From: a virus
Strand: one strand, 5' to 3'
IMG/VR virus record: IMGVR_UViG_3300031576_000005
Coordinates: 1-64,000 of that record
DNA length: 64,000 bases
A model generated the notes under the pieces. That model saw only the letters and a program-made list of their open reading frames with translations. It ran no database searches and had not been told where the DNA came from. Every line of letters starts with the position of its first letter. Position 1 is the stretch's first letter. The position numbers and the translations under genes are program-made. Positions 16,226 to 46,805 of this stretch are shown here, piece after piece.

Positions 16226-16239
16226 TATCTTACACTCTA
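16226..16239 (-). promoter_or_regulatory. AGTGTAA motif, leftward
   Basis: Minus strand AGAGTGTAAGATAT; gtgtaa begins at 16235, 14 bases before ATG 16221. The only copy I found on the minus strand. With the rightward copy at 16300 it forms a divergent pair. Confidence 0.45.
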
Positions 16240-16295
16240 ATATAATAGCAGAAATATTCTATAAAATCAATGAAGAAAATAATTAAATATATAAA

Positions 16296-16309
16296 AATAG
16301 TGTAAAAGC
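16296..16309 (+). promoter_or_regulatory. AGTGTAA motif upstream of the late operon
   Basis: AATAGTGTAAAAGC; gtgtaa begins at 16300, 99 bases before the first gene (16399) of the rightward operon that includes the sigma-like gene. This would allow autoregulation. Confidence 0.5.
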
Positions 16310-16327
16310 ATATACGGATAATTATTG

Positions 16328-16356
16328 TTGAAAAGTACGACCATACCTGATAGTAT
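16328..16356 (+). promoter_or_regulatory. Sigma-70 promoter with operator-like inverted repeat
   Basis: TTGAAA (16328-16333), 17 bases, TAGTAT (16351-16356); predicted start near 16363. CATACCT (16342-16348) and AGGTATG (16365-16371) form an inverted repeat around the -10 box and start site, suited to a repressor. Confidence 0.6.
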
Positions 16357-16398
16357 AAAGGTAAAGGTATGTTAAGATAAATTTAAATTAGGAGTTTT

Positions 16399-16866
16399 AT
16401 GGATATAAAGTATTGTAATTCATGTGGACAGGATAATGTTTTATCTGCCAAATTCTGTATGGCCTGTCGTTTAGGATTCCCAGATATCATAGTTAAGGTT
16501 TCAAATAAGCCACATCTAAAAAAGCAGGTAAGTAAATATAATAAAATAGAAGTAGATGATTCTGAAAAGTTAGGAGAGGGGGATGAATCAGATGCGGATA
16601 TTGATTTAGTTTGTGGATATTTCGACGACCCAAATGCTCAAATGGATTTTGCTAGCAGTTTGATTGATAGGGTTATTAGCGATAATGTCCCTTCTATTAG
16701 AGAACGTGCTATAAAAATTCAAGATGTTATAGCTACCGCCAAAAAGACAGAGGGCAAAAGAGATTCAGGATTAGGAAAAATTTCAACACAAAAAGATGCT
16801 AAGAAAATAGCTGAACAAATGTTTAAATCAACAGAATCTACTAGAATTATTGAAGGCAAAGAATAA
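16399..16866 (+). CDS. Zinc-ribbon protein, 155 aa
   Basis: N-terminal zinc ribbon C6-x2-C9 and C20-x2-C23 (YCNSCGQDN, FCMACRLGF), then an acidic linker (SEKLGEGDESDADIDLV) and a helical C-terminal part. AGGAG lies five bases before the ATG. First gene of the rightward operon, two bases ahead of a homing endonuclease and before the sigma-like gene. Function unknown; the ribbon and position would suit a transcription or packaging accessory role, which is inference only. Confidence 0.65.
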   Translation: MDIKYCNSCGQDNVLSAKFCMACRLGFPDIIVKVSNKPHLKKQVSKYNKIEVDDSEKLGEGDESDADIDLVCGYFDDPNAQMDFASSLIDRVISDNVPSIRERAIKIQDVIATAKKTEGKRDSGLGKISTQKDAKKIAEQMFKSTESTRIIEGKE

Positions 16867-16868
16867 TT

Positions 16869-17474
16869 ATGATACTTTGTCTTGATTTTTTAAATACATA
16901 CGACGAAAAGCCAAGTGTTATTAAAAGTTTGGTAAAATGTGATGATTGTAGTAAAGAGAGAGTTATAAAAAAAATTAATGCCGTTAGGGGAAGTAACTTT
17001 TGCACTTCTTGTCGTCAAAAAGGAGAAAGACATGGTCTTTATGGCAAACGTGGAGAAAAAAGTCCTAACTACGGTTCTCATCGCTCCGAAGAAACTTGCG
17101 AAAGAATACGCCTATCTCTCGTTGGTCTTTATATTGGAGAAAAACATCCTCGTTGGCGTAAGGATTTAACAAAAGAGGAACGTCAACTCAATAAAGACAG
17201 AAATTATAATCCTAAAAATCGAGAATTTAGAGAAGAGGTATATCTACGCGATAACAATACATGCTGTATTAGCGGTAGAAGAGGCGGTGATTTAGTTGTC
17301 CATCGTCTCTACAACTGGGCTAAATATCCAGAGCTTCGTTTTGATATAAATAACGGTATCACGATTTGTAAAGAGCTTCATCAAATTTTTCATAAAATTT
17401 ATGGAAATCACAACAATACGCCAGAACAGTTTGAGGAATTCAGAAAATATATTTTAGACATCTTAATATGGTAA
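16869..17474 (+). CDS. NUMOD3/HNH homing endonuclease, 201 aa (copy 1)
   Basis: Layout: N-terminal CDDC...CTSC zinc ribbon, two NUMOD3-type blocks (GERHGLYGKRGEKSPNYG, HRSEETCERIRLSL), then the HNH domain (RWRKDLTKEERQLNKDR, VVHRLYNWAKYPELRF, NNGITICKELHQIFHKIYG, NTPEQFEEF). Nicks DNA and promotes its own spread. One of six similar genes in the window. The first HNH histidine is followed by Arg (VHRL) where the others have HHL or HHI/HHF. Overlaps the sigma gene start by 7 bases. Confidence 0.85.
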   Translation: MILCLDFLNTYDEKPSVIKSLVKCDDCSKERVIKKINAVRGSNFCTSCRQKGERHGLYGKRGEKSPNYGSHRSEETCERIRLSLVGLYIGEKHPRWRKDLTKEERQLNKDRNYNPKNREFREEVYLRDNNTCCISGRRGGDLVVHRLYNWAKYPELRFDINNGITICKELHQIFHKIYGNHNNTPEQFEEFRKYILDILIW

Positions 17475-18118
17475 CATTCGAGGAAAGCATACCTAAAATT
17501 AATAAAGTGATTTCGTTATATCGTAGCCGCTGGACATTACAACATTATAGCTATGAAGATATTTCTCAAGACATTTTATTACACATATATCATAAGTGGC
17601 ATCTTTACAATCAGGAGAAAAATTTGGAACCATGGATAGCTCGCCTAACTCAAAATTTTCTAAAAAACGAGATGAGGAATAAATATTATATCCATCAAAA
17701 GCCTTGCCTCCGTTGCCCAATGTATACTCAAGACGATGGTTGCAAATTATACGGGACTGTTTCTTCCAAATGCCGTCTGTATAAAAAATTTATTGAACAA
17801 AAATCAGAAGCATCAAATATTAATTTTCCCGTCTCCTATGAAACTTCCAGTTATGACTCATCTCAACCATTTAGTTGTACTCCTACTGAATTTACTCAAG
17901 GTCTAAATTTGATAATCTCCGGAATAGATAAAGAAGTATTTAATTTATTTTTTGCCTCCGGATTTTCAACTACAAAAATAGCAAGACACATACATATCAG
18001 CGGCCAGAATTTTAACGAACGATTTGAAATTGTTGAGGAGAGCCTAAAAAATACTCAACTCTTAGCAAGAGATGTTATAGAAGATAAGAAAATTTCGATG
18101 GGATTAAATTATGTCTAA
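17468..18118 (+). CDS. Sigma-70-family-like factor, 216 aa
   Basis: Residues 26-73 match sigma region 2: YSYEDISQDILLHIYHKWHL then EPWIARLTQNFLKNEMRNKY, closely following the ECF pattern (xxEDIxQDxFLxxWxx...PWLxxIARNxxxDxxR). Residues 153-200 (ISGIDKEVFNLFFASGF, TTKIARHIHIS) look like region 4 with a helix-turn-helix. A four-cysteine insert (C80, C83, C92, C102) between the regions may bind zinc. Expected role: redirect host RNA polymerase to phage promoters, probably the AGTGTAA motifs. I assign this from motifs only. Confidence 0.65.
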   Translation: MVTFEESIPKINKVISLYRSRWTLQHYSYEDISQDILLHIYHKWHLYNQEKNLEPWIARLTQNFLKNEMRNKYYIHQKPCLRCPMYTQDDGCKLYGTVSSKCRLYKKFIEQKSEASNINFPVSYETSSYDSSQPFSCTPTEFTQGLNLIISGIDKEVFNLFFASGFSTTKIARHIHISGQNFNERFEIVEESLKNTQLLARDVIEDKKISMGLNYV

Positions 18119-19058
18119 CGAAAAAGAAATCCTAACAGAAGAAGATAAAAAGTTCATAATCGACAATTATTCTAAGATGTCTGTTTATCAACTGGCTATT
18201 CGTCTTAATATCAAAACAGAGAATAGGAAGTGTCCTATTATTCTTGATTTTATTAAGAACTCCGGACTACAAATTACGCCAAACTCTCAACCCGTCTCTG
18301 CCGATGTTAAAGCCACGCCACTATCTCCAGAAGAAATCGTCAAATCAATCATTGAAGAAAAAAATATAGATGTAGACAATCCCGATGCAGAAATTGATTA
18401 TCAACAAGTAAGTATCGAAGAGTTTGCTAATGTTTTAAAAGAACTGCATATTTTTGTTAGGACTCCAATAAGTGAAAAAGAAAAGAAAGATATTACTTTT
18501 CTAATCAATCAAATGCAATCTAGGCGATATCTTTATAATTATAAGAGCTATAAGAAGAGGGAATACAAAGATTTATTTCGAGAGGAGTTCGTTCGCGCCC
18601 TTTATGGAAAAGGTGATATGCCGCAAGACGAGGTAAATGATTACATTGACGTATGCAATGAAATAGTTTTTCAATATGATATAAAATGTAAAATTCGTGA
18701 AATAGAAAAAATGAAAGACTCCCCCGGAAATAGCGTAGCACAAATTGTTGCATTTGATAGCTTAATTTTAAATCTAAATGACCAAAACACAAATTCAACA
18801 AAGCGAGCTGGTGAAATTAAAAAGACTCTTGGTGTTAATCGAGAGCAGAGATTAAAAGATAGTCGCCCACAAGGTCTGACCGTTTTAGCTCTTATTGAAG
18901 CCTTTCAGGATAATGAGAAACGAGCCGCGTTAATGAAACTTCAGGAAAATAAAGACAAAGAAATACGAGATACAATGCAAGTCTTAGATGAAATGGATGC
19001 AACCAAAGCCCTAATTCTTGGTGTGGGCATTGATGAAATTTTACAGGGTGGCTTATGA
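18111..19058 (+). CDS. HTH protein upstream of terminase, 315 aa
   Basis: N-terminal helix-turn-helix-like segment (residues 11-33, DKKFIIDNYSKMSVYQLAIR) followed by acidic linkers and a helical C-terminal half with LIEAFQDNEKRAALMKLQEN. An HTH protein ahead of the large terminase could be the small terminase subunit, but no conserved motif proves it. Overlaps the sigma gene by 8 bases and the next gene by 4 (ATGA). Confidence 0.45.
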   Translation: MSNEKEILTEEDKKFIIDNYSKMSVYQLAIRLNIKTENRKCPIILDFIKNSGLQITPNSQPVSADVKATPLSPEEIVKSIIEEKNIDVDNPDAEIDYQQVSIEEFANVLKELHIFVRTPISEKEKKDITFLINQMQSRRYLYNYKSYKKREYKDLFREEFVRALYGKGDMPQDEVNDYIDVCNEIVFQYDIKCKIREIEKMKDSPGNSVAQIVAFDSLILNLNDQNTNSTKRAGEIKKTLGVNREQRLKDSRPQGLTVLALIEAFQDNEKRAALMKLQENKDKEIRDTMQVLDEMDATKALILGVGIDEILQGGL

Positions 19059-20032
19059 TAGTTTGTAAAGAATGTAATACGGCCTTCGAGAGCGAGAAAT
19101 CATTTCACGGACACTTACGTAAGCACAAGTTGCGAGTGAAGGATTATTATGAGAAATACTATCCAAAGATTTGTCTTTATACGGGTAAGAAATTAAATTG
19201 GAAGGAAGGTGATTCTCTAGAGAACTATCTGTTACGGGATTTTATAGATAAGACATCTTTAAATTTATATTTTGAAAATAAAGACAATTTAGAAGATAAG
19301 AAAAAACAATTGGTTAAAGAGTTAGATAAAGATTATTTAAAGCATAACATTCTTCCGTGTCAGGCTGAATTAGCATCGTTATCTTGCTCACCAAATTTTC
19401 TACATGTTCAAAATTATTTTGATATTCAAGATTTGATTAAAGAAAAAAAATATAAATCAAGATTCGAATATTTTTTCGATTATAACTCTAAACTTCCTTT
19501 AGAAAAAATAGATATTGATAGTTTTTGTATAAATATTGATAGTCGTGAAAAAAGTCCCTACAGATTCTATAATAGCATCGTTGGAAAATTAAATTTCGGG
19601 GATTATTGCATCGCGGGTTCCGGCTTTAACAATATATTTGTTGAGAGAAAGGCAGTCGGAGATTTTGGTTCCACGTTAGTTAGTGGTTATGAAAGATTTT
19701 GTCGTGAGTTAGACAGAGTAAGAGCAGAGAATAGCTATTTAATTATTTTGGTTGAATTTAATTTGCACGAACTCCATCGCCACCGATTTTTTGGTTACGC
19801 TAATAGCGCGATGATATCTCATCAGATGAGGAATATTTATAGGAATTATAGCGACGTTTGTCAATTTACTTTTGGTGGTACTAGAGAACAATGTGTTCAA
19901 TATGTTGTTGAATTTTTGGTTTGTGGGGATAGTTGCCGAAAATTAGATTTACAATTTTATATTGATTGTCACAAGAATAAATTTTGTAGCGTTGAGTTTA
20001 CAAAAAATGATTTAATTAAATTATATGAATGA
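19055..20032 (+). CDS. C2H2 zinc-finger plus ERCC4-family nuclease, 325 aa
   Basis: Residues 4-24 form a C2H2 finger (C4-x2-C7-x12-H20-x3-H24). Residues 158-250 carry the XPF/Mus81 nuclease signature: INIDSREKSPYRF, GDY (182-184), VERK (196-199) and D203F. These residues bind metal and cut branched DNA in the ERCC4 family. The middle has FDIQDLIKEKKYKSR. Position just before terminase suggests a role in trimming branched replication DNA before packaging, by analogy with phage resolvases. Confidence 0.8.
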   Translation: MIVCKECNTAFESEKSFHGHLRKHKLRVKDYYEKYYPKICLYTGKKLNWKEGDSLENYLLRDFIDKTSLNLYFENKDNLEDKKKQLVKELDKDYLKHNILPCQAELASLSCSPNFLHVQNYFDIQDLIKEKKYKSRFEYFFDYNSKLPLEKIDIDSFCINIDSREKSPYRFYNSIVGKLNFGDYCIAGSGFNNIFVERKAVGDFGSTLVSGYERFCRELDRVRAENSYLIILVEFNLHELHRHRFFGYANSAMISHQMRNIYRNYSDVCQFTFGGTREQCVQYVVEFLVCGDSCRKLDLQFYIDCHKNKFCSVEFTKNDLIKLYE

Positions 20033-20864
20033 CATGAATAATAAAAAAAATTGTACGTGTTGTAAATTAGAAAAGGATTTAGAGATGTTTTCTTTAAATA
20101 AAGGAAAAAAAACTGGTAGAAACTGTACTTGTAAAAAATGTGTTAGAGAAAAATTTCACATTAAATACGAAACTGACCCAGTTTATAAAGAAAAAGTTGA
20201 TAGATATAAAAGAGAATATTATATTCGACGTAAGAAACATATTTTAAATAAAGCTAAAAAACATTTTAAAAAAAATAAAAAAGAGATTAAATTAAAACAA
20301 AAAAAATATTATTTAAAAAATAGAGAAAGATTTTTAGATATATCTAAAGAATATAGGCTAGAGAATAAAGAAAAAATAAAACAACGAGATAAAAAATATC
20401 GAAAGAAAAACAGAAAAAAACTTCTTTTACAAGCCGCAAAATATCGTGAAAATAATAGAGAAAAGCTTAGAGCCGGATATAAAATATATAAGATTAATAA
20501 TAAAGAAAAAGTTAAAAAACGAAACAAAATATATAAACAGAAAAATCGAAAGCGTTTAAATAAATATGCTGTAAATAAAAGAAAAACAGATATTCAATTT
20601 TGTTTAAAATGTCGTCTTCGACAACAAGTATGTAAGGCATTAAGAGGTAATTCTAAATCAAAAACAACTTTAGAATTATTGGGATGTACTATCCAAGAAT
20701 TTAAAAAATATTTAGAATCTAAATTTCAACCAGGAATGACATGGGAAAATCGCGGACTTTTTGGTTGGCATATTGACCATATCCGGCCATGTAGTTCCTT
20801 CCTTCTAGAAAAACCATCCGAACAACGCAAATGTTTTCATTATACAAATTTACAACCTCTATAG
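20025..20864 (+). CDS. HNH endonuclease, amber-truncated, 279 aa
   Basis: N-terminal cysteine cluster (CTCCKLEKDLEMF, CTCKKC), a long lysine-rich helical region, and a C-terminal HNH core (WHIDHIRPCSSFLLEKPSEQ RKCFHYTNLQPL). The family normally continues NLQPLWAEENLxK. Here TAG (20862-20864) replaces the Trp codon, and the frame then reads AEENLSKSNKIL to TAA 20901-20903, one base before the terminase ATG. A TGG-to-TAG nonsense change is the simplest reading. Other genes also end in TAG, so TAG is a normal stop. A second possible start is ATG 20034. Confidence 0.7.
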   Translation: MNDMNNKKNCTCCKLEKDLEMFSLNKGKKTGRNCTCKKCVREKFHIKYETDPVYKEKVDRYKREYYIRRKKHILNKAKKHFKKNKKEIKLKQKKYYLKNRERFLDISKEYRLENKEKIKQRDKKYRKKNRKKLLLQAAKYRENNREKLRAGYKIYKINNKEKVKKRNKIYKQKNRKRLNKYAVNKRKTDIQFCLKCRLRQQVCKALRGNSKSKTTLELLGCTIQEFKKYLESKFQPGMTWENRGLFGWHIDHIRPCSSFLLEKPSEQRKCFHYTNLQPL

Positions 20865-20904
20865 GCCGAAGAAAATTTATCTAAAAGTAATAAAATTTTA
20901 TAAC

Positions 20905-22710
20905 ATGTTAATACATTCAAACTTCCAGATTTCTCCTTTTCGAAATAAGAAATATGACGTTCTTCTTAGAACCCCAGTGTTAGAACGCTCTGAAGCTGAA
21001 AGCGTATTATGTTATTATTTATTAAGAAATATAGATGCTTTTTGTTATTTTGTTTTGGGTTGTGAGATGTTACCTTTTCAATCTATAATTTTACGAACAT
21101 TGATTCGAAAGCCCTTTCCAATGTTAATTTTATCGCGTGGTGGAAGCAAAACCTGGAGTTTGGGAATTTATTCAGTGATTCGAGCTTGTATTACAAGTGG
21201 TTCTAAGGTGGTAATGGTCGGTTCTTCAAGGCGTCAAAGTAGATTTATATTCGAGGAGGCAAAAAAAGTTTATTATAATCCTAAAGCCTCCTTATTTCGA
21301 GAACTTGTTCCTAAGCCACCCACAGATTTGCCAGAGGCTTCAACTATGATAGTAAGAGGTACGGATAAACAATCTTTGATTGCCGCCTACCCTTTGGGTG
21401 CTGGTGAAAAAATTAGAGGGATTCGTAGTAGCCATTTAATAGTCGATGAATTCAACGTGGTCCCAAACGACATCTTTAACACTGTACTTAAACCCACTTC
21501 TGCTGTTTCTATTAATCCTGTCGATAAAGTAAAAAGAATAAAAAGAGAAAAAGAGCTAATAGATGCTGGCATTATTAGTTCTGATGACGCAACGGAATTT
21601 GATGATAACCAAATTATTATATCAAGTAGCGCTTCATATCAATTTACTTTTATGTACCAGCTTTATAAGGAATATAAGAAAATAATTTTAGAAGGAGCCG
21701 AATCACATGATAAAAAAGTAATAAAAAATGCTTCTAAATATTGTATAATACAGCTTGGCTGTGATAGTATAACAAAAGTAGCTCCGGGATATTTAGATGA
21801 ATCTAATTTAGAAAATGCTAGGTCGATGTTACCTTCGGACCGTTTCGATACAGAATATGGTGCTCAGTTCGTTAGCGATAGCGGTGGATTTATTAAGAGG
21901 TCTTTAATTGATTCTAGAAGTTTGAAGATTAATGAAGCCCCTATTGTTGAAATTAGTGCACAATCTGGTTATGTGTATATATTGTCCGCCGACCCTAGTT
22001 CAGGCGAAAACGAAAAAAATGATTTCTTTGGAATTGTTGTGATAAAATTAGATATGACCACACGCACGTCCTATATCGTTAACGCTTCCGCTTCATCTGG
22101 CAAAGGCTGGCCCTACTACGTCGCCCTAGTAAAAGAATATATGAATAATTTTAACCCCGTATACATAATCTCCGATGCTTTTGGTGGCGGGAGTCAAATG
22201 GCCTCGCTATTATGTAGTCCTGACTTCGCCAACAAAGAAAAAGGGGAGCGCCCACTTGTTTCTATAGATAAAGATGATATAAAAACCTATTGCCATGCTT
22301 CAAATAGAATCTTAAGGATGAACACCCCGACTAACCAATTTAACGAAGCCAGCAATACACATTTAAAATCTCTATTAGAACATAAAAAAATATGGTTTGC
22401 CGCGCCGATTGATGAAGCCACATATACTAAACATGATTCTAAATCTATAGAAAAGCTTGAAGAAGCTTCTGAAATGATAGAATTAGCAAAAAATCAAATA
22501 AGTTTAATTGTCGGAAGTCAAGGTTCAAATGGGCTAACGACCTTCAATATGCCAGAAAGTTTGGGTAAAATACATAAAAAAGAAAGAATGAGAAAAGATT
22601 TATATTCAGCCGCCTTGTTAGGAGCTTGGGGCGTAAAAGAATATCTTGATATTGTAGATGGGGGTAATCAGAAAACCACTACTTATTGCCCGGTTGTTCT
22701 TACAAGCTAA
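20905..22710 (+). CDS. terL: Terminase large subunit, 601 aa
   Basis: ATPase: Walker A-like SRGGSKT (residues 77-83) and Walker B LIVDEFN (178-184). Nuclease: LSADPSSGENEKND near residue 362 and SDAFGGGSQ near 422, matching the RNase H-like terminase nuclease acidic residues. Translocates DNA into the prohead and cuts it. The Walker A has GGSKT where many terminases have xxGKT. Start one base after the end of the disrupted HNH frame. Confidence 0.88.
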   Translation: MLIHSNFQISPFRNKKYDVLLRTPVLERSEAESVLCYYLLRNIDAFCYFVLGCEMLPFQSIILRTLIRKPFPMLILSRGGSKTWSLGIYSVIRACITSGSKVVMVGSSRRQSRFIFEEAKKVYYNPKASLFRELVPKPPTDLPEASTMIVRGTDKQSLIAAYPLGAGEKIRGIRSSHLIVDEFNVVPNDIFNTVLKPTSAVSINPVDKVKRIKREKELIDAGIISSDDATEFDDNQIIISSSASYQFTFMYQLYKEYKKIILEGAESHDKKVIKNASKYCIIQLGCDSITKVAPGYLDESNLENARSMLPSDRFDTEYGAQFVSDSGGFIKRSLIDSRSLKINEAPIVEISAQSGYVYILSADPSSGENEKNDFFGIVVIKLDMTTRTSYIVNASASSGKGWPYYVALVKEYMNNFNPVYIISDAFGGGSQMASLLCSPDFANKEKGERPLVSIDKDDIKTYCHASNRILRMNTPTNQFNEASNTHLKSLLEHKKIWFAAPIDEATYTKHDSKSIEKLEEASEMIELAKNQISLIVGSQGSNGLTTFNMPESLGKIHKKERMRKDLYSAALLGAWGVKEYLDIVDGGNQKTTTYCPVVLTS

Positions 22711-22714
22711 GCTG

Positions 22715-22728
22715 AAAAGTGTAAAATT
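22715..22728 (+). promoter_or_regulatory. AGTGTAA motif before fibre gene 1
   Basis: AAAAGTGTAAAATT, 28 bases before ATG 22747. The block from AAAAGTGTAAAATTTAATG through TAAAAAT is identical to that at 27324. Confidence 0.6.
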
Positions 22729-22746
22729 TAATGTAAAAATTTTTTT

Positions 22747-25476: not shown

Positions 25477-25477
25477 T

Positions 25478-27323: not shown

Positions 27324-27337
27324 AAAAGTGTAAAATT
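27324..27337 (+). promoter_or_regulatory. AGTGTAA motif before fibre base gene
   Basis: AAAAGTGTAAAATT, 24 bases before ATG 27352, same extended block as at 22715. Confidence 0.6.
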
Positions 27338-27351: not shown

Positions 27352-27822
27352 ATGCATTCTCCATTTATATCTAGCACTAGTCTATTTTTCCCTGTTTGGT
27401 CCGGTTTTTCCGACCCCTCTCTTAGACCAACCCTTATGGTCGCAAGGGATGGCTCTGGCTATCGACCGGTTGAAATTGCGGAATTTGGTGGCGATATCTT
27501 AATTAGTGGAATTACAGTCAGTAATAAGCCAGCGCTTCCCGTTTCTCAAGGAACCTACGGAATTTCTTTAACCGGAACTGGTAGTTTTAGCAATTATTCC
27601 AGCTCAATCCCAACCGCTACCGGCGCGGTTGTAAGTTTAAGTGTTGAACCACATTCTGATAATAATGATATTATATATTATGCGTTTAGTGGAAATGCTA
27701 CAACGGGTAATGCTTGGGAAATTAGGGGCGATAGAACATTTGAGATTGTTAATAACTCAAGTCTATTTTTTGCACAACGGACTTCTGGCCAAATAGTAAT
27801 GGTTCATTTTCAGACATTTTAA
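27352..27822 (+). CDS. Fibre attachment-domain protein, 156 aa
   Basis: Residues 1-50 (SSTSLFFPVWSGFSDPSLRP, ARDGSGYRPVEIAEFGG) duplicate the N-terminus of the 22747 product. The C-terminal part (STGAVVSLSVEPHSDNNDII to MVHFQTF) is a small beta domain. It resembles fibre 1 with the repeat shaft removed. Start chosen from the shared N-terminus and the shared upstream motif. Confidence 0.7.
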   Translation: MHSPFISSTSLFFPVWSGFSDPSLRPTLMVARDGSGYRPVEIAEFGGDILISGITVSNKPALPVSQGTYGISLTGTGSFSNYSSSIPTATGAVVSLSVEPHSDNNDIIYYAFSGNATTGNAWEIRGDRTFEIVNNSSLFFAQRTSGQIVMVHFQTF

Positions 27823-34498: not shown

Positions 34499-34512
34499 AA
34501 AAGTGTAATATC
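34499..34512 (+). promoter_or_regulatory. AGTGTAA motif before the 34532 gene
   Basis: AAAAGTGTAATATC; gtgtaa at 34503, 29 bases before ATG 34532. It restarts transcription of the head genes after the sulfotransferase/endonuclease insertion. Confidence 0.55.
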
Positions 34513-34531: not shown

Positions 34532-34837
34532 ATGTCATCCAAGGGTACTAAAAATATAATTACTGATGCGGAAACGTTAAAAGACCTCATTTATGAGGTT
34601 CATAGCCCATCTTTAAAGAAGATTTCGCGTACTTTGATATTAGGTAATCTTGGCATCATCTTGGCCATGTCCTGGGGAATAATTACAGACCATTTCGTAG
34701 TAAAAAACCTAGTATCTATCACAAGTATTCATTCAACGCAAATTGATGGATTAAATAATAGAACTACTAGTAACGAAAAAGCCCTTGCTGCGGATGATGC
34801 TCGCATTAAGAATATAGAAAATAATAGAAAAAGATAA
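34532..34837 (+). CDS. Single-pass membrane protein, 101 aa
   Basis: Membrane segment at residues about 35-53 (TLILGNLGIILAMSWGIIT) after a basic/polar N-terminus; the C-terminal 45 residues form a polar coiled coil (QIDGLNNRTTSNEKALAADD). Shape is that of a holin, spanin or membrane-anchored head accessory. No lysin is found beside it, so no lysis role is claimed. Confidence 0.55.
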   Translation: MSSKGTKNIITDAETLKDLIYEVHSPSLKKISRTLILGNLGIILAMSWGIITDHFVVKNLVSITSIHSTQIDGLNNRTTSNEKALAADDARIKNIENNRKR

Positions 34838-35280: not shown

Positions 35281-36777
35281 ATGGAGAAGAAGCAAAGAGT
35301 TATTCATATAGAAGGTAGTGACTTAAAACTCATTCGTCATCCGAAGAGAGAGTTGGTGGCTTGTGCTAGCGAAATAGGAATACAAGAAGCCTATGCAAAA
35401 TTATTCCCTAAAGACCCTAAAAAAGATATTCTCTATTTTAGTGGGATTAGCTTCACTATAGGCAATATCAACAAAAATGATTGTATTATCCTTCCAGACG
35501 AAGGTATGTCAATGTATAAGACAGGGATTTCCTCTCCTCTTGATATAGAGCATGAACGAGAGCGAATAGTTGGTTTTTGTGTTAATACATACTTATCAAA
35601 CATAAACAATAATAAAATCTTAGACGAAGAGCAAGCACAGGAAATTCTTGGCGGTAAAGGTATGGTGAATGTTGGCGTTGTTATGGGAGCGTGGAAAATT
35701 AATGCACAAGAAGCTACTGAATTATTACTCGAAAATTTTGACGAAAACTCTGCCAATTTTAATAAAATTAAACTTTCTTTCGAATGTTACTTTAGTGATT
35801 TTTCTTTCTTTTTATCCAATGGACGAGCTAATTATCCAGATGGACAATTAATATCTAGCGGCGAAGATAATATTGACGCTGACAAAATGTTCGATGCCTT
35901 AAAAATAAACGGTGGAAATGGTGTCTGGCAAGGTAATCGTATATCAATAGCCCCCCATAAATCCTTTATCGGCGGTAATGCAATTACCCTTGCTCCAGCC
36001 AACGAATTTAGTCATTTGGTATCAAAAAAGGAAGATGAAAGCATTTTAATCCATGTTTCTACCGAATCTAAAACTACAGAAATAGAAAAAAGTGTAAATA
36101 TAAACACAGGAGACATTATTATGCCCGAACCCCTTAAAGATACAAAAAGTGAAATTGCAGTTGAAGCAGCCGTCGCTCCAATATTAGTTGATAAAGACAT
36201 GGCTGATAAACTTCAATCTGAACTGAATATTAAGCTTTCTGAGCTTAGCGCAAAAGAGAACAAAGTCACAGAACTTACAGCAAGTGTTGATGCACTGAAA
36301 AAAGAAAATGAAGAGATTAAAGAAAAACTTATCAAAGCCGAAGAAATGGCTAAAAAGATTCAAGAGTTTCTTGACAAAGAAATTGAAGCTCGTAAAATCG
36401 CTGAAGCAAAAGAAGTCGCCATGGCACAAAAACAATTGGTAGCATCTAGGCTTGGTAAAATTAGTGAATTCATTGAAATCACAGATAATAACCGAGCATT
36501 GCTTGAAAAAGAATGCGCCGATGCTTCTGATGAAGATTTTAATAGGAAACTTGATTTTTATAAGAGTATTTCAAAGAGCGTTCAAGCTAGCATAGAACCT
36601 TCTAATGATAAAGATGTTAAGGCAACTATTGAAGATGTAGTGGCTGATACAGGGAAAGACACAAAAAGTGTAAATATTCATGCGGCAGCACCAAGTGAAT
36701 CATTAAAAGACCAATTTGCGAGGGCATTTAATATTAAAGCTCTCGGATATACAGATAAAAGATTAGTTAACGAGTAA
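35281..36777 (+). CDS. Prohead protease fused to scaffold, 498 aa
   Basis: Start at MEKKQRVIHIEGSDLKLIRH (ATG 35281); a longer frame begins at 35170 inside the previous gene but has no support. Residues 1-280 look like a capsid maturation protease, with candidate catalytic His91 (LDIEHERERIVGF) and Ser166 (KIKLSFECYF). Residues 281-498 form a charged coiled coil (about 300-410), typical of scaffold. Position ahead of decoration and capsid genes fits. A second start for the scaffold alone lies at 36121. Confidence 0.75.
   Translation: MEKKQRVIHIEGSDLKLIRHPKRELVACASEIGIQEAYAKLFPKDPKKDILYFSGISFTIGNINKNDCIILPDEGMSMYKTGISSPLDIEHERERIVGFCVNTYLSNINNNKILDEEQAQEILGGKGMVNVGVVMGAWKINAQEATELLLENFDENSANFNKIKLSFECYFSDFSFFLSNGRANYPDGQLISSGEDNIDADKMFDALKINGGNGVWQGNRISIAPHKSFIGGNAITLAPANEFSHLVSKKEDESILIHVSTESKTTEIEKSVNINTGDIIMPEPLKDTKSEIAVEAAVAPILVDKDMADKLQSELNIKLSELSAKENKVTELTASVDALKKENEEIKEKLIKAEEMAKKIQEFLDKEIEARKIAEAKEVAMAQKQLVASRLGKISEFIEITDNNRALLEKECADASDEDFNRKLDFYKSISKSVQASIEPSNDKDVKATIEDVVADTGKDTKSVNIHAAAPSESLKDQFARAFNIKALGYTDKRLVNE
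36088..36101 (+). promoter_or_regulatory. Internal AGTGTAA motif for the scaffold
   Basis: AAAAGTGTAAATAT inside the protease coding region; gtgtaa at 36092, 29 bases before the internal ATG 36121. The codons encode KSVNINTGD. Confidence 0.6.
36121..36777 (+). CDS. Nested scaffold protein, 218 aa
   Basis: In-frame internal gene of the protease gene: ATG 36121 with AGGAG nine bases upstream (CACAGGAGACATTATT) and an AGTGTAA motif 29 bases before. The product MPEPLKDTKSEIAVEAAVAP begins exactly where the protease domain ends and contains the whole coiled-coil part. Mirrors lambda C/Nu3, where scaffold is made from an internal start in the protease gene. It would give excess scaffold over protease. 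Confidence 0.7.
   Translation: MPEPLKDTKSEIAVEAAVAPILVDKDMADKLQSELNIKLSELSAKENKVTELTASVDALKKENEEIKEKLIKAEEMAKKIQEFLDKEIEARKIAEAKEVAMAQKQLVASRLGKISEFIEITDNNRALLEKECADASDEDFNRKLDFYKSISKSVQASIEPSNDKDVKATIEDVVADTGKDTKSVNIHAAAPSESLKDQFARAFNIKALGYTDKRLVNE
36664..36677 (+). promoter_or_regulatory. AGTGTAA motif before decoration/capsid genes
   Basis: AAAAGTGTAAATAT; gtgtaa at 36668 within the 3' end of the scaffold gene, 129 bases before ATG 36797. Confidence 0.5.
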
Positions 36778-37336: not shown

Positions 37337-37358
37337 TTTATAAAATAAAGGATATCAA

Positions 37359-38438: not shown

Positions 38439-38460
38439 TAATATCTAATAAAATATAAAA

Positions 38461-38494: not shown

Positions 38495-38503
38495 GTTTTC
38501 TAG

Positions 38504-38532
38504 TTGAAACATATCAATAAAACTGCTATAAT
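38504..38532 (+). promoter_or_regulatory. Sigma-70 promoter after the capsid terminator
   Basis: TTGAAA (38504-38509), 17 bases, TATAAT (38527-38532), near perfect. Start near 38539, ten bases from the terminator to the -35 box. Confidence 0.7.
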
Positions 38533-38549
38533 AAGGTAAAAGGAATAAT

Positions 38550-38876: not shown

Positions 38877-38909
38877 GTTGGTACGTCTAGAAAAAGGTGG
38901 AAGAGGGAT

Positions 38910-38923
38910 TATAGTGTAATATT
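38910..38923 (+). promoter_or_regulatory. AGTGTAA motif before neck genes
   Basis: TATAGTGTAATATT; gtgtaa at 38914, 71 bases before ATG 38985. Restarts late transcription after the 38550 gene. Confidence 0.55.
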
Positions 38924-38984
38924 AATGGAATACCGCGTATTTTTTATGCGTGATATATTATTTAAATATTAACATTTCTATATT

Positions 38985-39479
38985 ATGTGTAGCGATACTT
39001 CTGGATACATTTCGAACATTCTTCTCGCGGTTGGCGATGAAGCAAATTTGGTTTATACGTCAGGAACTGTCAATCAACTCATTTTTGCTAAACTGCCTAT
39101 GCTCAATGGTCTCATGGGGACATGTTTTTCTGGTGACTCTACCGTTGGTTGCATAACTCCCTCTATTTCGGGAACCGTATATCAATCGATATTGGAGCTT
39201 TTAATTTCTAAAGAATTGACTAAACGCTCTATGTATACGGCAAGCAGAACATTCACCCTAACTTCGTTCAAAGAAGGGGATAGTTCAGTAAATGTGTCAG
39301 ACCAATCAAAATATTTACATGAATTATACAAACAATTACAAAGCGAATTCGATAGGATTGTGAATCAAACAAAATATTCAATAGCGTCTAATGCGGTTAC
39401 TACAGTTATTGGAACAGACGCCAGTATTCAAGAAACTATTCCATATATTCAATATGGGCGTTATTATCCGAACTATTAG
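38985..39479 (+). CDS. Probable head-tail connector protein, 164 aa
   Basis: First gene of the neck/tail module. Hydrophobic start (ISNILLAVGDEANLVYT), then GTVYQSILELLISKELTKRS and a helical region (YLHELYKQLQSEFDRIVNQ). Size and position suit an adaptor; no motif proves it. An overlapping frame at 38950 is a shadow. Ends in TAG. Confidence 0.5.
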   Translation: MCSDTSGYISNILLAVGDEANLVYTSGTVNQLIFAKLPMLNGLMGTCFSGDSTVGCITPSISGTVYQSILELLISKELTKRSMYTASRTFTLTSFKEGDSSVNVSDQSKYLHELYKQLQSEFDRIVNQTKYSIASNAVTTVIGTDASIQETIPYIQYGRYYPNY

Positions 39480-39493
39480 ACCGAGATTAGATT

Positions 39494-40291
39494 ATGATAT
39501 TGAAAATTGAATTCGAACGAAGAAAATCTGGGGTAGAAAAACATAAGAGATGGTTCTCTTTGGTAAAATGTGATGATTGTGGAGAGGAAAGGACAATATT
39601 AAAACGTGATGCGATTGCGGGAAAAGGCGATGAATTTTGTGCTAATTGTTCTAGAAAAGGAAAAAGAAATGCTAATTATGGGAAAACACATTCCATAGAA
39701 ATTCGTCAAAAAATAAGCGAATCTCTAGCTGGGGAAAATCATCCAATGTTTGGTAAACGTCACAGTAAAGAAACATGCGAAAAAATAGCCAAATCTTTAA
39801 TTGGAAAAAATTGCGGAGAGGAAAATCATAATTTCGGTAAAAATTTTTCTGAAGAATGGCGTGAAAAAATAGGTGCATCCCATAGGGGGGAAAAGTGTTA
39901 TAATTACGGAAAACATCTTTCCGAAGAAACTCGTCAAAAGCTAAGTTTATGCCACAAAGGAGAAAAAAATTATAATTGGAGATTCGATTTAACTCAGGAA
40001 GAAAGAGAAAATAATAAAAATAGACGATATAATCCCAAAACCCAAGAATTCCGAAAATTAGTTTTAGCACGAGATAATTATACCGACCAAATTACTGGGA
40101 AAAGAGGCGGAAAATTAATTGTTCATCATCTTTACAATTGGGAGGATTATCCCGACAAAAGATTTAACATAAACAACGGTGTTACAATCTCCGAGGCTTA
40201 CCATATTTTATTTCATAAAATCTATGGATATAGATATAATACACCCGAACAGTTCGAGGAATTCAAACAAAATATTTTAAACTTTAATTAA
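39494..40291 (+). CDS. NUMOD3/HNH homing endonuclease, 265 aa (copy 3)
   Basis: Zinc ribbon CDDC...CANC, then about five NUMOD3-type repeats (KRNANYGKTHSIEIRQKISE, NHPMFGKRHSKETCEKIAKS, and others) and HNH (WRFDLTQEERENNKNRRYNP, IVHHLYNWEDYPDKRFNINN, HILFHKIYG, NTPEQFEEF). Ends one base before the next neck gene. Inserted between two structural genes. Confidence 0.85.
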   Translation: MILKIEFERRKSGVEKHKRWFSLVKCDDCGEERTILKRDAIAGKGDEFCANCSRKGKRNANYGKTHSIEIRQKISESLAGENHPMFGKRHSKETCEKIAKSLIGKNCGEENHNFGKNFSEEWREKIGASHRGEKCYNYGKHLSEETRQKLSLCHKGEKNYNWRFDLTQEERENNKNRRYNPKTQEFRKLVLARDNYTDQITGKRGGKLIVHHLYNWEDYPDKRFNINNGVTISEAYHILFHKIYGYRYNTPEQFEEFKQNILNFN

Positions 40292-40852: not shown

Positions 40853-40853
40853 T

Positions 40854-41528: not shown

Positions 41529-42398
41529 ATGAGAACAAGCTATTGGGAAGACATAAAGCAAAGTTTATATAATTTATATGACCATAAATTATTAGAGCAA
41601 GGCGCTTATGTTAATATAACGGGTGGCCAAAAGGACTTTAAAGGGAGAAATATTTCTAAATTCTATCCAGTTATAGACAATGAATTATATTCTGTTTCTG
41701 GACATATTTGGCAGTCGGCATTTCATAATTTTGTGTATGAAAGTGGTGTTGTTAATAAACCAACCCCGATTGTCGCATCGGGCGTATATGTTAATGGCGT
41801 CTTTACACCAAAAAGCAATTCTTTACATATAGACTATATAAACGGACGAGTAATATTTGATACGGCTATTTCAACCTCAAGTACCGTACAAGGTGATTTT
41901 AGTTATAAGGAATATAGTTTTGTTCGACCTGATAATGATAGAGCATTTAAAAATCAAACTAAATATAGTATTAATTCTAATGTAGATGTTGACCCATTTC
42001 CAGCTATTCCCTATTCTATATATTTACCAGCTATTATTATAGAAATAGAAGGAGCAGATGAAAAGGGGTTCCAATTTGGCGGGACTACAGAAACACTACC
42101 AACCCTTAAATTAACCGTTATTGGCGACCATCAAGGACAGGTCGAAAACATAGCTAGCGTGCTTTCTTCTACCTCTACAAAGGATTTACCAGTAGTTGCG
42201 GCCAACCTGGGGCCAAAGTTTAATTTTTTCTATGATTTAACTGATAATTACTCATTTTATCAATGGTGCAAGCTAAGTGAGAACTTTGCCCTTATAAAAA
42301 GTGTAAAATATACTAGGATTTTTAACTCTACAACAGAAAAAGAGGAACCCTCTCTATTTGGTGGGAGTATAATAATAGAAATTTCAGCAATTAGATAA
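41529..42398 (+). CDS. Tail-terminator/neck-region protein, 289 aa
   Basis: MRTSYWEDIKQSLYNLYDHK; mixed beta protein with SGVYVNGVFTPKSNSLHIDY INGRVIFD and TLKLTVIGDHQGQVENIASV. Lies between the gp10-like and tail-tube genes. Contains the AGTGTAA motif for the tail-tube gene in its 3' part. Confidence 0.45.
   Translation: MRTSYWEDIKQSLYNLYDHKLLEQGAYVNITGGQKDFKGRNISKFYPVIDNELYSVSGHIWQSAFHNFVYESGVVNKPTPIVASGVYVNGVFTPKSNSLHIDYINGRVIFDTAISTSSTVQGDFSYKEYSFVRPDNDRAFKNQTKYSINSNVDVDPFPAIPYSIYLPAIIIEIEGADEKGFQFGGTTETLPTLKLTVIGDHQGQVENIASVLSSTSTKDLPVVAANLGPKFNFFYDLTDNYSFYQWCKLSENFALIKSVKYTRIFNSTTEKEEPSLFGGSIIIEISAIR
42297..42310 (+). promoter_or_regulatory. AGTGTAA motif before the tail-tube gene
   Basis: AAAAGTGTAAAATA; gtgtaa at 42301, 111 bases before ATG 42412, within the preceding gene. 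Confidence 0.55.
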
Positions 42399-42411
42399 CA
42401 GGAGAACTACC

Positions 42412-43461: not shown

Positions 43462-43490
43462 AGCAAAATTAATTCACAAATATAAAAGAG

Positions 43491-43520
43491 ACCCTCCAAT
43501 CGAAAGATTGGGGGTTTTTT
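43491..43520 (+). terminator. Rho-independent terminator after the tail-tube gene
   Basis: ACCCTCCAATC-GAAA-GATTGGGGGT followed by TTTTT; long GC stem with GAAA tetraloop. Confidence 0.8.
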
Positions 43521-43525
43521 ATTTG

Positions 43526-43554
43526 TTGAAAATTACAATCAATCATGATATAAT
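43526..43554 (+). promoter_or_regulatory. Near-perfect sigma-70 promoter for endonuclease copy 4
   Basis: TTGAAA (43526-43531), 17 bases, TATAAT (43549-43554). ATG 43562 lies seven bases after the -10 box, so the transcript is essentially leaderless. Confidence 0.7.
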
Positions 43555-43561
43555 ATAAAAC

Positions 43562-44206
43562 ATGAGCGTTATTTTTTTAGATTATTGTAGAGGACATATA
43601 AAGGGAAGAAATCTAATAATGTCATTAGTTAGATGCGATAATTGTTTTAGGGATAGGTTAGTTGAGAAACATAATATATTAAAGAATCATGGCGTTAATC
43701 ATTGTCGTGATTGTTCTAGGATTATTCTTTTTAAATATAGAAATCCATCTACTATTAATCCAAAATTTGGTAAACACAATCCAATGTTTGGTAGGGTGGG
43801 AATAGAACATCCGGGACATCGTTTGAATAGAACTAAAGAAAGTTTAGAGAAAATGGCCAAAAATAGAAGTGGTAGTAAAAATTGGAGATGGGATGAAACT
43901 ATATCCGACCAAGATAGACTTAAAAATAATTACGGAAGAGATAAGAACAAATTAAGGTTTTGGAGAGTGGATGTTTTTATTAAAGATGGTTATACTTGTC
44001 AAATCTCTAACATCAAAGGATGCCGTTTGGTGGCTCATCATATTTTTAACTATAAAGATTATCCCGAAAAAAGATTTGATGTTAATAATGGCATGGCTAT
44101 CGCACGAGAATTACATGAGTTATTTCATATGATTTATGGCAAAAGACACAACAATTTAGAACAATTCCTAGAATTTAAACAATATATCCAAGAAATTTTA
44201 GCATAA
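43562..44206 (+). CDS. NUMOD3/HNH homing endonuclease, 214 aa (copy 4)
   Basis: Zinc ribbon CDNC...CRDC, one or two NUMOD3-type blocks (KFGKHNPMFGRVGIEHPGH, TKESLEKMAKNRSG), HNH (WRWDETISDQDRLKNNYGR, VAHHIFNYKDYPEKRFDVNN, LFHMIYG, NNLEQFLEF). The most divergent of the six: it lacks the RDDLT and NTPEQFEEF forms seen in the others. It alone has a full terminator-promoter unit in front of it. Confidence 0.82.
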   Translation: MSVIFLDYCRGHIKGRNLIMSLVRCDNCFRDRLVEKHNILKNHGVNHCRDCSRIILFKYRNPSTINPKFGKHNPMFGRVGIEHPGHRLNRTKESLEKMAKNRSGSKNWRWDETISDQDRLKNNYGRDKNKLRFWRVDVFIKDGYTCQISNIKGCRLVAHHIFNYKDYPEKRFDVNNGMAIARELHELFHMIYGKRHNNLEQFLEFKQYIQEILA

Positions 44207-44220
44207 TATAGTGTAATATA
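44207..44220 (+). promoter_or_regulatory. AGTGTAA motif before chaperone-like genes
   Basis: TATAGTGTAATATA; gtgtaa at 44211, 30 bases before ATG 44241, immediately after the endonuclease stop. Confidence 0.6.
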
Positions 44221-44240
44221 TATAAAGGAATAAGGCAATA

Positions 44241-44555
44241 ATGGATAACACATCAGCAAAAATCTTTCTCTCTAAAGATGTACAAGATTCTTTTAAAGAG
44301 ATACAAAAAGCTTTTTTTGGAATCATAGATGATTTACGCGCGAGCGATGCAGACCATTTAGAACATCTTAAAACCATATTACAAGATGATACACTAGCAA
44401 ATACTTTTCAACTCTTTCAAGAAAATCGCAATAAATCTATTAGAAAAAAAGTATTAGATACAATGGGTGATGAGGGAAGAAAATTAGCAACAAAGCTAGA
44501 CGACTATCAAATTAATTTTGCTCAAGATATTGAGATAAAGGCAACAATAAAATAA
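44241..44555 (+). CDS. Probable tail assembly chaperone, 104 aa
   Basis: Helical, acidic protein (DVQDSFKEIQKAFFGIIDDL, ADHLEHLKTILQDDTLANTF) between tail-tube and tape-measure genes, where tail assembly chaperones lie. Two AAGG-like boxes precede the ATG. No programmed frameshift into the next gene is apparent: both are in the same frame with a stop between. Confidence 0.5.
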   Translation: MDNTSAKIFLSKDVQDSFKEIQKAFFGIIDDLRASDADHLEHLKTILQDDTLANTFQLFQENRNKSIRKKVLDTMGDEGRKLATKLDDYQINFAQDIEIKATIK

Positions 44556-44567
44556 AGGAAAAGGAAT

Positions 44568-45206
44568 ATGAAAGTAGTACATACATTTAAAATTAAAAAT
44601 GGCGATAAGGAACTAGAATTTAGTTTCATCGAGGCGTCTAAAGGCGTAATCCGTGAAGGAGAGATGGTATACGCAAAAAAATATGCCGAATGCTTGCGAG
44701 CAGGACTTCTGTCAAATGCAGAGGCTTTAAAACTTTCCAATCAAAATGGCGGTGTGTTTACAGACGAGGAAAAAGATGATTACGTAAAATCGCTTGGAGA
44801 ATTTTTATCTAAGGACAAGGAGATGCAAGATTTAAAGGCCAAAAACGAGGATACTAAATTAGTCGAGGAACAAATAAAAGTTATTAAAGATAAAATACTT
44901 TTTTATCAAAACAAAAATGACTCAATTTTTGAATTTTGTTCAGAATCAAAATCTAGAGATGCGGTACTGTTGCACTATGCATTTTCATTAACTATGTTAG
45001 ATGGTAAACCCTATTTCCCCGGTAAAAATCACGCAGAACGAACTAAGTCTTATGATGAAAATTCGGATGCTATTAAAGATGAAATTTTGAAACGTAGTAT
45101 CTGGTATGCTACGGCTTTATTTTATAATATTCAAGATATCGATGCAAAATACCCAGAGGATACTTTGGAGATTGCATCCACCGCTCCAGAAACACAAAAA
45201 GCTTAA
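44568..45206 (+). CDS. Probable tail assembly chaperone, 212 aa
   Basis: MKVVHTFKIKNGDKELEFSF begins with a beta hairpin, followed by helices (VKSLGEFLSKDKEMQDLKAK, VEEQIKVIKDKILFYQNKND) and a C-terminal acidic part. AAAGGAAAAGGA before the ATG. Position fits a chaperone that covers the tape measure; no signature motif is visible. Confidence 0.45.
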   Translation: MKVVHTFKIKNGDKELEFSFIEASKGVIREGEMVYAKKYAECLRAGLLSNAEALKLSNQNGGVFTDEEKDDYVKSLGEFLSKDKEMQDLKAKNEDTKLVEEQIKVIKDKILFYQNKNDSIFEFCSESKSRDAVLLHYAFSLTMLDGKPYFPGKNHAERTKSYDENSDAIKDEILKRSIWYATALFYNIQDIDAKYPEDTLEIASTAPETQKA

Positions 45207-45230
45207 TTTTATTTAAGTTAGAAACTGGAG

Positions 45231-45257
45231 AAAAACCCCCGCGATAGGGGGTTTTAT
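45231..45257 (+). terminator. Terminator-like hairpin before endonuclease copy 5
   Basis: AAAACCCCC-GCGATA-GGGGGTTTT followed by ATTTTTAT. It ends seven bases before ATG 45264, with no recognisable promoter between, so it must be partly read through or act in mRNA processing. Confidence 0.65.
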
Positions 45258-45263
45258 TTTTAT

Positions 45264-45878
45264 ATGTCAATTATTATTGAAAAATATGAGAAAAGAGTAT
45301 CTAGTAAGAGAGAGGTATGGTTTTCTTTAGTTGAGTGTGAACACCCTTTGCACGTAGGAGAGAGGAAAAGAATAATAAGAAAAGATAATGCTTTAAAATG
45401 CGGCGGGATTAAATACTGTGGTTCTTGTAGTCGGGGTGGAGAAAAACATCCGTGTTTCGGTAAACATCTTTCTAAAGAAATGCGTGAAAAATTAAGTTTA
45501 GCGAATAGTGGGGAAAAAAATTGTCATTATGGAAAGCGTGGCAAAGAAACGTCTCGATGGCGAGACGATTTAACGCAAGAAGAACGGGAATTAAACAAGG
45601 ATAGAAGTTATAATCCTAAAAATCGTGAGTGGCGAGAAATGGTTTTTAAGCGGGATAATTGGAGATGTCTTTTCTCCGGACGAAAAGGCGTTAAACTTGA
45701 AGCTCATCATCTATATAACTGGGCGGATTATCCAGAAAAAAGATTCGATATAAAGAATGGTATCACATTATGTAAGGAGATACATAAATTATTCCATAAA
45801 AGATACAGATATCGCAACAACACACCCGAACAATTCGAAGAATTTAAATTATGGTATACATATGATTACCAAATCTAG
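45264..45878 (+). CDS. NUMOD3/HNH homing endonuclease, 204 aa (copy 5)
   Basis: N-terminal CEHPLHVGERKRI...CGSC zinc segment (as in copy 2), two NUMOD3 blocks (GEKHPCFGKHLSKEMREKLS, GEKNCHYGKRG), HNH (RWRDDLTQEERELNKDRSYN, EAHHLYNWADYPEKRFDIKN, LFHKRYR, NTPEQFEEF). Sits between two structural genes; stop is three bases before the next ATG. Confidence 0.85.
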   Translation: MSIIIEKYEKRVSSKREVWFSLVECEHPLHVGERKRIIRKDNALKCGGIKYCGSCSRGGEKHPCFGKHLSKEMREKLSLANSGEKNCHYGKRGKETSRWRDDLTQEERELNKDRSYNPKNREWREMVFKRDNWRCLFSGRKGVKLEAHHLYNWADYPEKRFDIKNGITLCKEIHKLFHKRYRYRNNTPEQFEEFKLWYTYDYQI

Positions 45879-45881
45879 TAT

Positions 45882-46805
45882 ATGGAATATAACGCCGAAG
45901 TTATAGATTTTACCTATAATAACATCCTTAACAACTTCACCCCTTTTGTCCTTGACGGAGTCTTGTATCTCGGTAAACATGTCTCTTCCGCCGATTTATT
46001 TTCTGCTAATTCGCATCTTCTATTGATAAAAAAAAATCTACAGTCTAATGGAGTTTTAAGCGAGTATGACATCATGAAAGATGCCATAGAAAAAGGTGTC
46101 TGGAGTCATGCTAAGAATCTAGAAATTCAAAATCTTAGAAATGATATTAAAAGAAAAGCTGAGGTTGTACCAAAATTAGTTCTTCCTAGTCAAAAAAAGC
46201 AGGTCGAGGCTGAGATTAAAATATTATCTAAAAAAATTTCTGATATAGAAAATGAAAAATCGGGATTTCTTACCCATTCCTTAGAAAGACAGTTACAATC
46301 AGAAAAATTAGATTATATTTGTTTTTTATCTATATATAAAGAAAATAAAGAAAGATTATGGCGTTCTTATGAAGATTTCTTAAATGAATCAACTGATTTT
46401 TCAAATAAGATTACCAAATTATATTTCTCTGTAATAAATGAAATGTCTAACTCTCTTATTCGGGCTATAGCCAGAGTTACTGATGCTCGATATAAATTAA
46501 AGATAGCTGGTACCAAATCTCCCGAAGATATTTCTATAGTTTTTCTAGAACTCCGTCAATGGTGTGACTTTTATAACTCTATTTATGAGTTAGATGACCG
46601 ACCCGCCCCTAATATTATCGAAGACGACATTAAACTAGATGGTTGGCTTTCAGCTAGGAAAGCTAAAAACGATATTATGAAAAGTGTAAATACCAGTGAA
46701 GGTGCGACTTCTTTTGGTGGTATTGTAGGTACAAAAGAAGATGTAGAAGCCTTTGGCGGGGTTTCTAGAGACCAGATTATAAGTTTAGCAAAGGAACAAG
46801 GATAA
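45882..46805 (+). CDS. Coiled-coil protein before the tape measure, 307 aa
   Basis: Long helical region with heptads (VEAEIKILSKKISDIENEKS, LSIYKENKERLWRSYEDFLN) and a C-terminal flexible tail (TSEGATSFGGIVGTKEDVEA FGG) of the kind found at the ends of tail assembly chaperones. One base separates it from the tape-measure ATG. May be a chaperone; not proven. Confidence 0.5.
   Translation: MEYNAEVIDFTYNNILNNFTPFVLDGVLYLGKHVSSADLFSANSHLLLIKKNLQSNGVLSEYDIMKDAIEKGVWSHAKNLEIQNLRNDIKRKAEVVPKLVLPSQKKQVEAEIKILSKKISDIENEKSGFLTHSLERQLQSEKLDYICFLSIYKENKERLWRSYEDFLNESTDFSNKITKLYFSVINEMSNSLIRAIARVTDARYKLKIAGTKSPEDISIVFLELRQWCDFYNSIYELDDRPAPNIIEDDIKLDGWLSARKAKNDIMKSVNTSEGATSFGGIVGTKEDVEAFGGVSRDQIISLAKEQG
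46680..46693 (+). promoter_or_regulatory. AGTGTAA motif before the tape measure
   Basis: GAAAAGTGTAAATA (offset by one base); gtgtaa at 46684, 123 bases before ATG 46807. Confidence 0.5.

Follow-up and report, generated by a model that had tools for sequence, protein, structure and literature searches.

A phage sigma factor and the lone AGTGTAA promoter it probably reads in an uncultivated virus

Few phage sigma systems are known in detail, and the textbook example of a promoter without a -35 box is that of T4 late transcription, in which the sigma factor gp55, acting with gp33 and the gp45 clamp, uses TATAAATA promoters; extracytoplasmic function (ECF, group 4) sigma factors such as SigR, SigH, SigW and E. 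coli sigma-E normally read a -35 together with a -10 element. Here we describe a window of 64,000 nucleotides (nt), bases 1-64000 of the 159,142-base IMG/VR record IMGVR_UViG_3300031576_000005, which encodes a sigma-like protein, P0001, and carries copies of the heptamer AGTGTAA upstream of many of its genes. We place at about 0.8 the probability that P0001 directs the host RNA polymerase core to AGTGTAA as a lone extended -10-type promoter. The locus resembles the late system of T4 in its small phage sigma, its predicted lone -10-like promoter devoid of a -35 box and the structural operons among its targets, but the motif differs and region 2 of the sigma is of ECF type with a four-cysteine (Cys4) insert; since no homology to gp55 was found (no gp55-named match for P0001 in PHROGs, Pfam, NCBIfam or a PDB sequence search, although a very remote kinship may exist), we do not file the system as a gp55 member. 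With ECF sigmas P0001 shares the sequence and predicted fold of region 2, whereas here a Cys4 insert sits in the linker, only a degenerate or shortened region 4 follows it, and no -35 element is visible.

All twelve GTGTAA positions listed by the first-pass annotation are present in the window, each preceded by an A:

14013..14019, plus strand: AGTGTAA; ATG of 14028-14396 follows after 8 nt; predicted leaderless
16230..16236, minus strand: AGTGTAA; ATG of 15928-16221 follows after 8 nt; predicted leaderless, divergent
16299..16305, plus strand: AGTGTAA; heads the gene run 16399-22710, which includes the sigma gene
22718..22724, plus strand: AGTGTAA; 22 nt upstream of 22747-25476 (909 residues, no named family)
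27327..27333, plus strand: AGTGTAA; 18 nt upstream of 27352-27822, directly past the portal gene
34502..34508, plus strand: AGTGTAA; 23 nt upstream of 34532-34837
36091..36097, plus strand: AGTGTAA within a gene; next gene 699 nt away
36667..36673, plus strand: AGTGTAA within a gene; 123 nt upstream of 36797; weaker candidate with flanks like those of the intergenic copies
38913..38919, plus strand: AGTGTAA; 65 nt upstream of 38985-39479
42300..42306, plus strand: AGTGTAA within a gene; 105 nt upstream of 42412 (weak tail tube family match); weaker candidate
44210..44216, plus strand: AGTGTAA; 24 nt upstream of 44241-44555
46683..46689, plus strand: AGTGTAA within a gene; 117 nt upstream of the tape-measure gene 46807-52872; weaker candidate

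Two further copies, at 2707 (antisense) and 36833, also fall within genes. The proposal that all listed copies are promoters is supported for the intergenic ones and is weaker for those inside genes (GTGTAA at 36092, 36668, 42301 and 46684); the copy at 36091 is probably either an internal promoter or a coincidence of the coding sequence. Measured from the motif's final base, the distances to the next ATG, previously sorted into three classes, come to 8, 18-24 and 65-123 nt, one in-gene copy having no start within 130 nt. The scaffold, decoration, neck and chaperone functions ascribed to some of the genes behind the motif were not confirmed from families.

The enrichment over shuffled sequence that had been anticipated lies in placement and not in number. 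The raw count is not elevated (the window has 14 copies, shuffles give 9.0 +/- 2.9 and 14 is reached in 6 out of 100), whereas the upstream intergenic segments of the window hold 8 copies against 0.32 expected from dinucleotide shuffles, in which the maximum was 3 in 2000. Across the whole 159 kb record, whose sequence is about 92% coding and about 8% intergenic, 16 of the 33 copies are intergenic, and 15 of these 16 are found no more than 130 nt upstream of a start in the same direction, the motif being strictly oriented toward the next gene. Among its 210 anagrams AGTGTAA ranks first for upstream copies (15), the best non-overlapping word reaching 5 and GTGTAAA, which overlaps it, being the sole anagram near its count. 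A blind scan of heptamers in upstream intergenic DNA genome-wide likewise returned AGTGTAA first (15 versus 0.77 expected, p 7.8e-15, a value that holds after correction for 16,384 heptamers). Because its 21 one-base variants are not enriched, with 12 upstream copies summed versus 15 for the exact word, the motif can be regarded as nearly invariant. A literature search retrieved no prior report of an AGTGTAA phage promoter, and papers on GTGTAT were, by title, without evident bearing. As a separate observation, the second over-represented words in the upstream intergenic DNA of G000 are TTGATTTT (7 versus 0.62) and AAACCCTC (4 versus 0.07).

To the 16 intergenic sites we added the copy at 67152, whose TAA also serves the upstream gene as its stop, and over these 17 sites the consensus is WAGTGTAAWAT. 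As the first-pass annotation had stated, no common -35 box is visible: no conserved -35 column was found in these sites, nor in sets of 10, 21 and 27 sites from relatives. At 14013 and 155812 on the plus strand and at 16230 and 96890 on the minus strand, an ATG stands exactly 8 nt past the motif and opens an open reading frame (ORF) of 94-307 codons; further ATGs occur 9, 10 and 12 nt after it, and a few distant copies are followed by AGGA-type ribosome sites. The ninth nucleotide past the motif is a purine at 15 of the 17 sites, and 67 sites pooled from five genomes show a preference for purines that begins at nucleotide nine past the core (78% at that position), T being the commonest base just before. 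Because an ATG lies exactly 8 nt downstream at four genes, these features fit a -10-type element from which some messenger RNAs would be leaderless and others would carry an ordinary leader; such a predicted lone element without a -35 box is of the kind used by the gp55 family.

The candidate reader of this element is encoded within the run headed by the 16299 copy:

17468..18118, plus strand: phage sigma factor P0001, with ECF-like region 2, Cys4 insert and degenerate region-4-like C-terminus

The ORF is intact and encodes 216 residues, with region 2 at about residues 3-72, the insert cysteines at C80, C83, C92 and C102, and the degenerate region-4-like segment at the C-terminus. Of the two sigma-like segments originally proposed, region 2 is well supported: Pfam Sigma70_r2 matches at 3.6e-5 (23.9 bits, 0.1 bit under the cut-off of 24.0), PHROG 1740 at 3e-8 and an NCBIfam family at 5.3e-7, and the family profile retrieves ECF sigma chains from PDB, with SigR at 6.6e-5. 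Region 4 is weakly matched (Sigma70_r4_2, E 0.14). Predicting the structure from one sequence gave an unusable model, with a predicted local distance difference test score (pLDDT) of 37; AlphaFold supplied with eight homologs gave a model in which only region 2 is reliable (N-terminal pLDDT mostly 80-90), and Foldseek with this model placed ECF sigmas on top (best E 4.9e-3, probability 0.99). All family matches were to sigma factors and none to another family, and region 2 places P0001 in the sigma-70 superfamily.

Searches with P0001 alone found no homologs in named phages or IMG/VR, and single-protein IMG/VR searches with the terminase, the tape measure and a capsid candidate yielded no relatives. 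Relatives were instead picked through an alignment of the terminase alone, not through the sigma, with the following gene as landmark:

20905..22710, plus strand: terminase large subunit (PHROG 2, 2e-21), with relatives about 30% identical

This search gave 46 loci, of which 17 show about 30% identity to the phage terminase, and in 16 of these 17 closest IMG/VR loci (L014-L028 and L030) a sigma-family ORF lies upstream of the terminase at a distance of 3.4-5.2 kb, or 3.4-5.3 kb when the assembly loci below are included, as in this phage; the lone exception, L029, is a 4.5 kb fragment without room upstream of the terminase. A separate terminase scan of genome assemblies added four loci, which constitute a fair out-of-sample test since they were not used in building the sigma profile, and the profile recognised a sigma in three of them (L081, E 2.4e-27; L084, 6.9e-25; L082, 1e-14), the fourth, L083, of just 8.6 kb, giving no match. 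The assemblies bear organism names (SAR202, Hydrogenophaga, archaeon, Nitrospirales) that label the bins and are no proof of host. The terminase, the portal, the capsid candidate and several replication proteins are common to the group, which can therefore be taken as one broad phage clade. The four cysteines of the insert are invariant in P0001, L014, L016 and L017 and present in L084; L015, L081 and the L018-L030 clade lack the insert, and the C-terminus of the relatives' sigmas is about 20 residues shorter than that of P0001.

The same blind word search, applied genome by genome, recovered related motifs in these phages: GTGTATTT in G001 (10 versus 0.29 expected, 9e-13), GTGTAT in G002 (21 versus 1.9, 3e-15) and in G003 (27 versus 2.4, 1e-19), AGTGTATT in a 157,945-base contig of 53% GC (7 versus 0.12, 6e-11), and TGTGTATA in a 93,671-base contig (4 versus 0.14, 1e-5), where GTGTAT occurs 6 times versus 0.94; contigs L014-L016 are too short for a judgement. 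The relatives' motif takes the form TAGTGTATWW or GTGTATTT, and each genome uses one form: this phage has a single upstream copy of GTGTAT and G001-G003 have 0-2 of GTGTAA, in neither case an enrichment. Start-codon spacing again peaks at 8 nt (11 of 58 sites), and in the L018-L030 clade the motif often lies directly 3' of a terminator-like hairpin, which fills the space that a -35 box needs. In related phages lacking this sigma (MaeS, Stills and eight IMG/VR loci), GTGTAA and GTGTAT are not leading words.

A close described arrangement is that of the Slashvirus genomes (Stills gp24, Slash gp25) and of Microcystis phage MaeS, where, as here, a sigma-type gene precedes a distantly homologous terminase by about 5 kb. 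However, the ECF-annotated sigma of Slashvirus and its homolog in MaeS have no significant similarity to P0001 (hhalign probability 2%) and, unlike this phage, their genomes show no GTGTAW enrichment; with no alignment between the proteins and with different upstream words, we rejected the notion that they have the same sigma and motif. In MaeS (L007), paired direct repeats GTTATAA-N6-GTTATAA, 13 bp apart, precede many genes and are possibly a regulatory element proper to MaeS, for example:

6918/6931, MaeS: GTTATAA repeat pair
10137/10150, MaeS: GTTATAA repeat pair
25567/25580, MaeS: GTTATAA repeat pair
32631/32644, MaeS: GTTATAA repeat pair

In Bacillus phage Stills (L008), TGTATTAATG occurs at 9626, 14197 and 26805, 34-52 nt upstream of several genes around the structural region, and is a candidate element for the ECF-annotated sigma of that phage.

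What the sequences themselves establish is the enrichment, orientation and spacing of the motif, the sigma homology, the synteny and the co-occurrence across lineages. That P0001 reads AGTGTAA we infer from that co-occurrence, and the binding, start site, timing and autoregulation proposed below are likewise inferred. The first genes would be driven by host sigma-70 promoters; P0001, once made, would bind the host RNA polymerase core and send it to the lone extended -10-type element WAGTGTAAWAT, which has no -35 box, transcription starting about 9 nt past AGTGTAA and several of the messenger RNAs being leaderless. In this way the phage sigma would switch on the structural operons together with some nucleotide-metabolism and small genes. 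The self-activation suggested by the first-pass annotation is plausible, since the 16299 copy precedes the gene run that holds the sigma gene, and P0001 would probably activate its own operon through it; sigma-70 promoters before the sigma genes themselves are weak candidates only. The suggestion of a late system with its own sigma and motif, unrelated in sequence to that of T4, is supported, but the label "late" is too narrow, since the motif has targets other than structural genes: outside the window it is also found before a ribonucleotide reductase gene (site 140886), an oxidoreductase gene (96890), small genes and genes of the opposite arm. The last base of GTGTAW depends on the lineage (GTGTAA versus GTGTAT), as joint divergence of sigma and promoter would predict. 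Carried also by at least four other lineages of related phages, the sigma and its matching signal point to a hitherto undescribed phage route to transcription takeover. The balance tilts slightly toward the broader view that this is a new phage sigma family in a widespread uncultivated clade, maybe infecting hosts of several phyla, that independently reached T4-style lone -10 promoters with frequent leaderless messenger RNAs and one-base promoter co-divergence. From a second, sequence-unrelated lone-element system with several natural variants, one could learn how a single short element suffices for a minimal sigma to define a promoter; the GTGTAA/GTGTAT pair provides a natural test of which region 2 residues read which base, and the motif is a simple predictor of operons and start sites across a large clade of uncultivated phages.

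Several points weigh against P0001 as the reader of the motif. The sigma sequences of the relatives are just 16-23% identical to it, region 4 is not convincingly recognised, L082 (a 175,863-base contig) has a recognisable sigma homolog without clear GTGTAW enrichment, and the close L018-L030 loci, with G002 and G003 among them, belong to a single clade that is counted once, so that the independent motif lineages are five, this phage included. In addition, the 3' half of the motif (TATWWT or TAAWAT) is like an ordinary -10 hexamer, and host sigma-70 could therefore contribute. The motif might be an extended -10 read by host sigma-70, with or without a phage activator, the sigma-like gene serving otherwise: TG-extended -10 promoters can function without a -35 box, the relatives' GTG-TATWWT looks like them, and TTGACA-17-TATAAT promoters in the same genome suggest ordinary host sigma-70. 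Nevertheless, the TG abuts the hexamer instead of standing one base off, and this genome has TAAWAT; the word is nearly invariant, its one-base variants being unenriched, and the sigma gene is syntenic with the terminase throughout the group. As the GTG is invariant, related phages that lack this sigma do not have the motif and the phages bearing it range from 34 to 53% GC, this explanation is weakened and we consider it unlikely.

An operator or RNA-level element (a repressor site, a translation signal or an RNA processing site) in place of a promoter core is more improbable still: some copies do lie 8 nt before an ATG, near the ribosome-binding position, yet start distances vary (8, 18-24 and more than 60 nt) and some distant copies are then followed by AGGA-type sites, while the motif is strictly oriented and has a T-purine step at the expected start, and in relatives it often comes directly after a terminator-like hairpin, as is the case with operon promoters. 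Chance occurrence of an AT-rich word in AT-rich intergenic DNA would agree with the window total, which lies within the shuffle range, but it is already refuted by the placement statistics and by the independent rediscovery in relatives, including a genome of 53% GC, and its probability is negligible. Reading of AGTGTAA by P0001 is compatible with a refinement that we hold only tentatively, namely that the sigma acts solely in company with a second phage protein, in the way that T4 gp55 depends on gp33 and the clamp. The short, weakly region-4-like C-terminus of the relatives' sigmas would agree with such a partner, as would the zinc-ribbon protein whose gene comes first in the sigma-containing run; however, that protein has no homolog in five compared relatives, and no dedicated co-activator was identified, nor a gp33-like or clamp component, no search being aimed at the clamp gene. 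No phage-encoded RNA polymerase was found among the large proteins.

16399..16866, plus strand: zinc-ribbon protein of 155 residues (Pfam Zn_Ribbon_1, N-terminal, 7.6e-4, under the family cut-off)
13440..13468, plus strand: host-type sigma-70 promoter, a perfect TTGACA-17-TATAAT, which contrasts with the lone AGTGTAA motif

Canonical sigma-70 promoters, including this perfect one at 13440, coexist with AGTGTAA in the genome. Late-type genes occupy the plus strand from about 16.3 to 85 kb, and small genes (1-16 kb) and replication and metabolism genes (86-159 kb) lie mostly on the minus strand; a few gene starts are possibly off since gene calling followed a simple ORF rule. Two hairpin-forming repeats around CCACTATAGGTGG lie at 13770-13905, in a coding-poor stretch of about 750 bases that separates divergent gene blocks, a region that is a possible origin or control region. 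Near 14376-14391, close to where the predicted leaderless gene 14028-14396 ends, there is a run of AG dinucleotides, possibly a slippage tract linking that gene to 14419-14661.

About a dozen HNH/NUMOD3 homing-endonuclease-like genes, all matching the same ORF of relatives, were noted, with further copies as far as 142 kb:

16869-17474, window: HNH/NUMOD3-like gene
33679-34449, window: HNH/NUMOD3-like gene
39494-40291, window: HNH/NUMOD3-like gene
43562-44206, window: HNH/NUMOD3-like gene
45264-45878, window: HNH/NUMOD3-like gene
54482-55375, window: HNH/NUMOD3-like gene
2493-3158, L002: HNH/NUMOD3-like gene

Several of them terminate at a motif copy or no more than about 55 nt from one (44206/44210, 34449/34502 and 67158), and in the gene ending at 67158 the stop codon is the TAA of the motif. 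On L002, the DNA polymerase III alpha gene is seemingly split into two ORFs flanking a D12-class adenine methyltransferase gene (9867-14205), and an intein with a LAGLIDADG domain interrupts a glycosyltransferase-like ORF (14490-17765).

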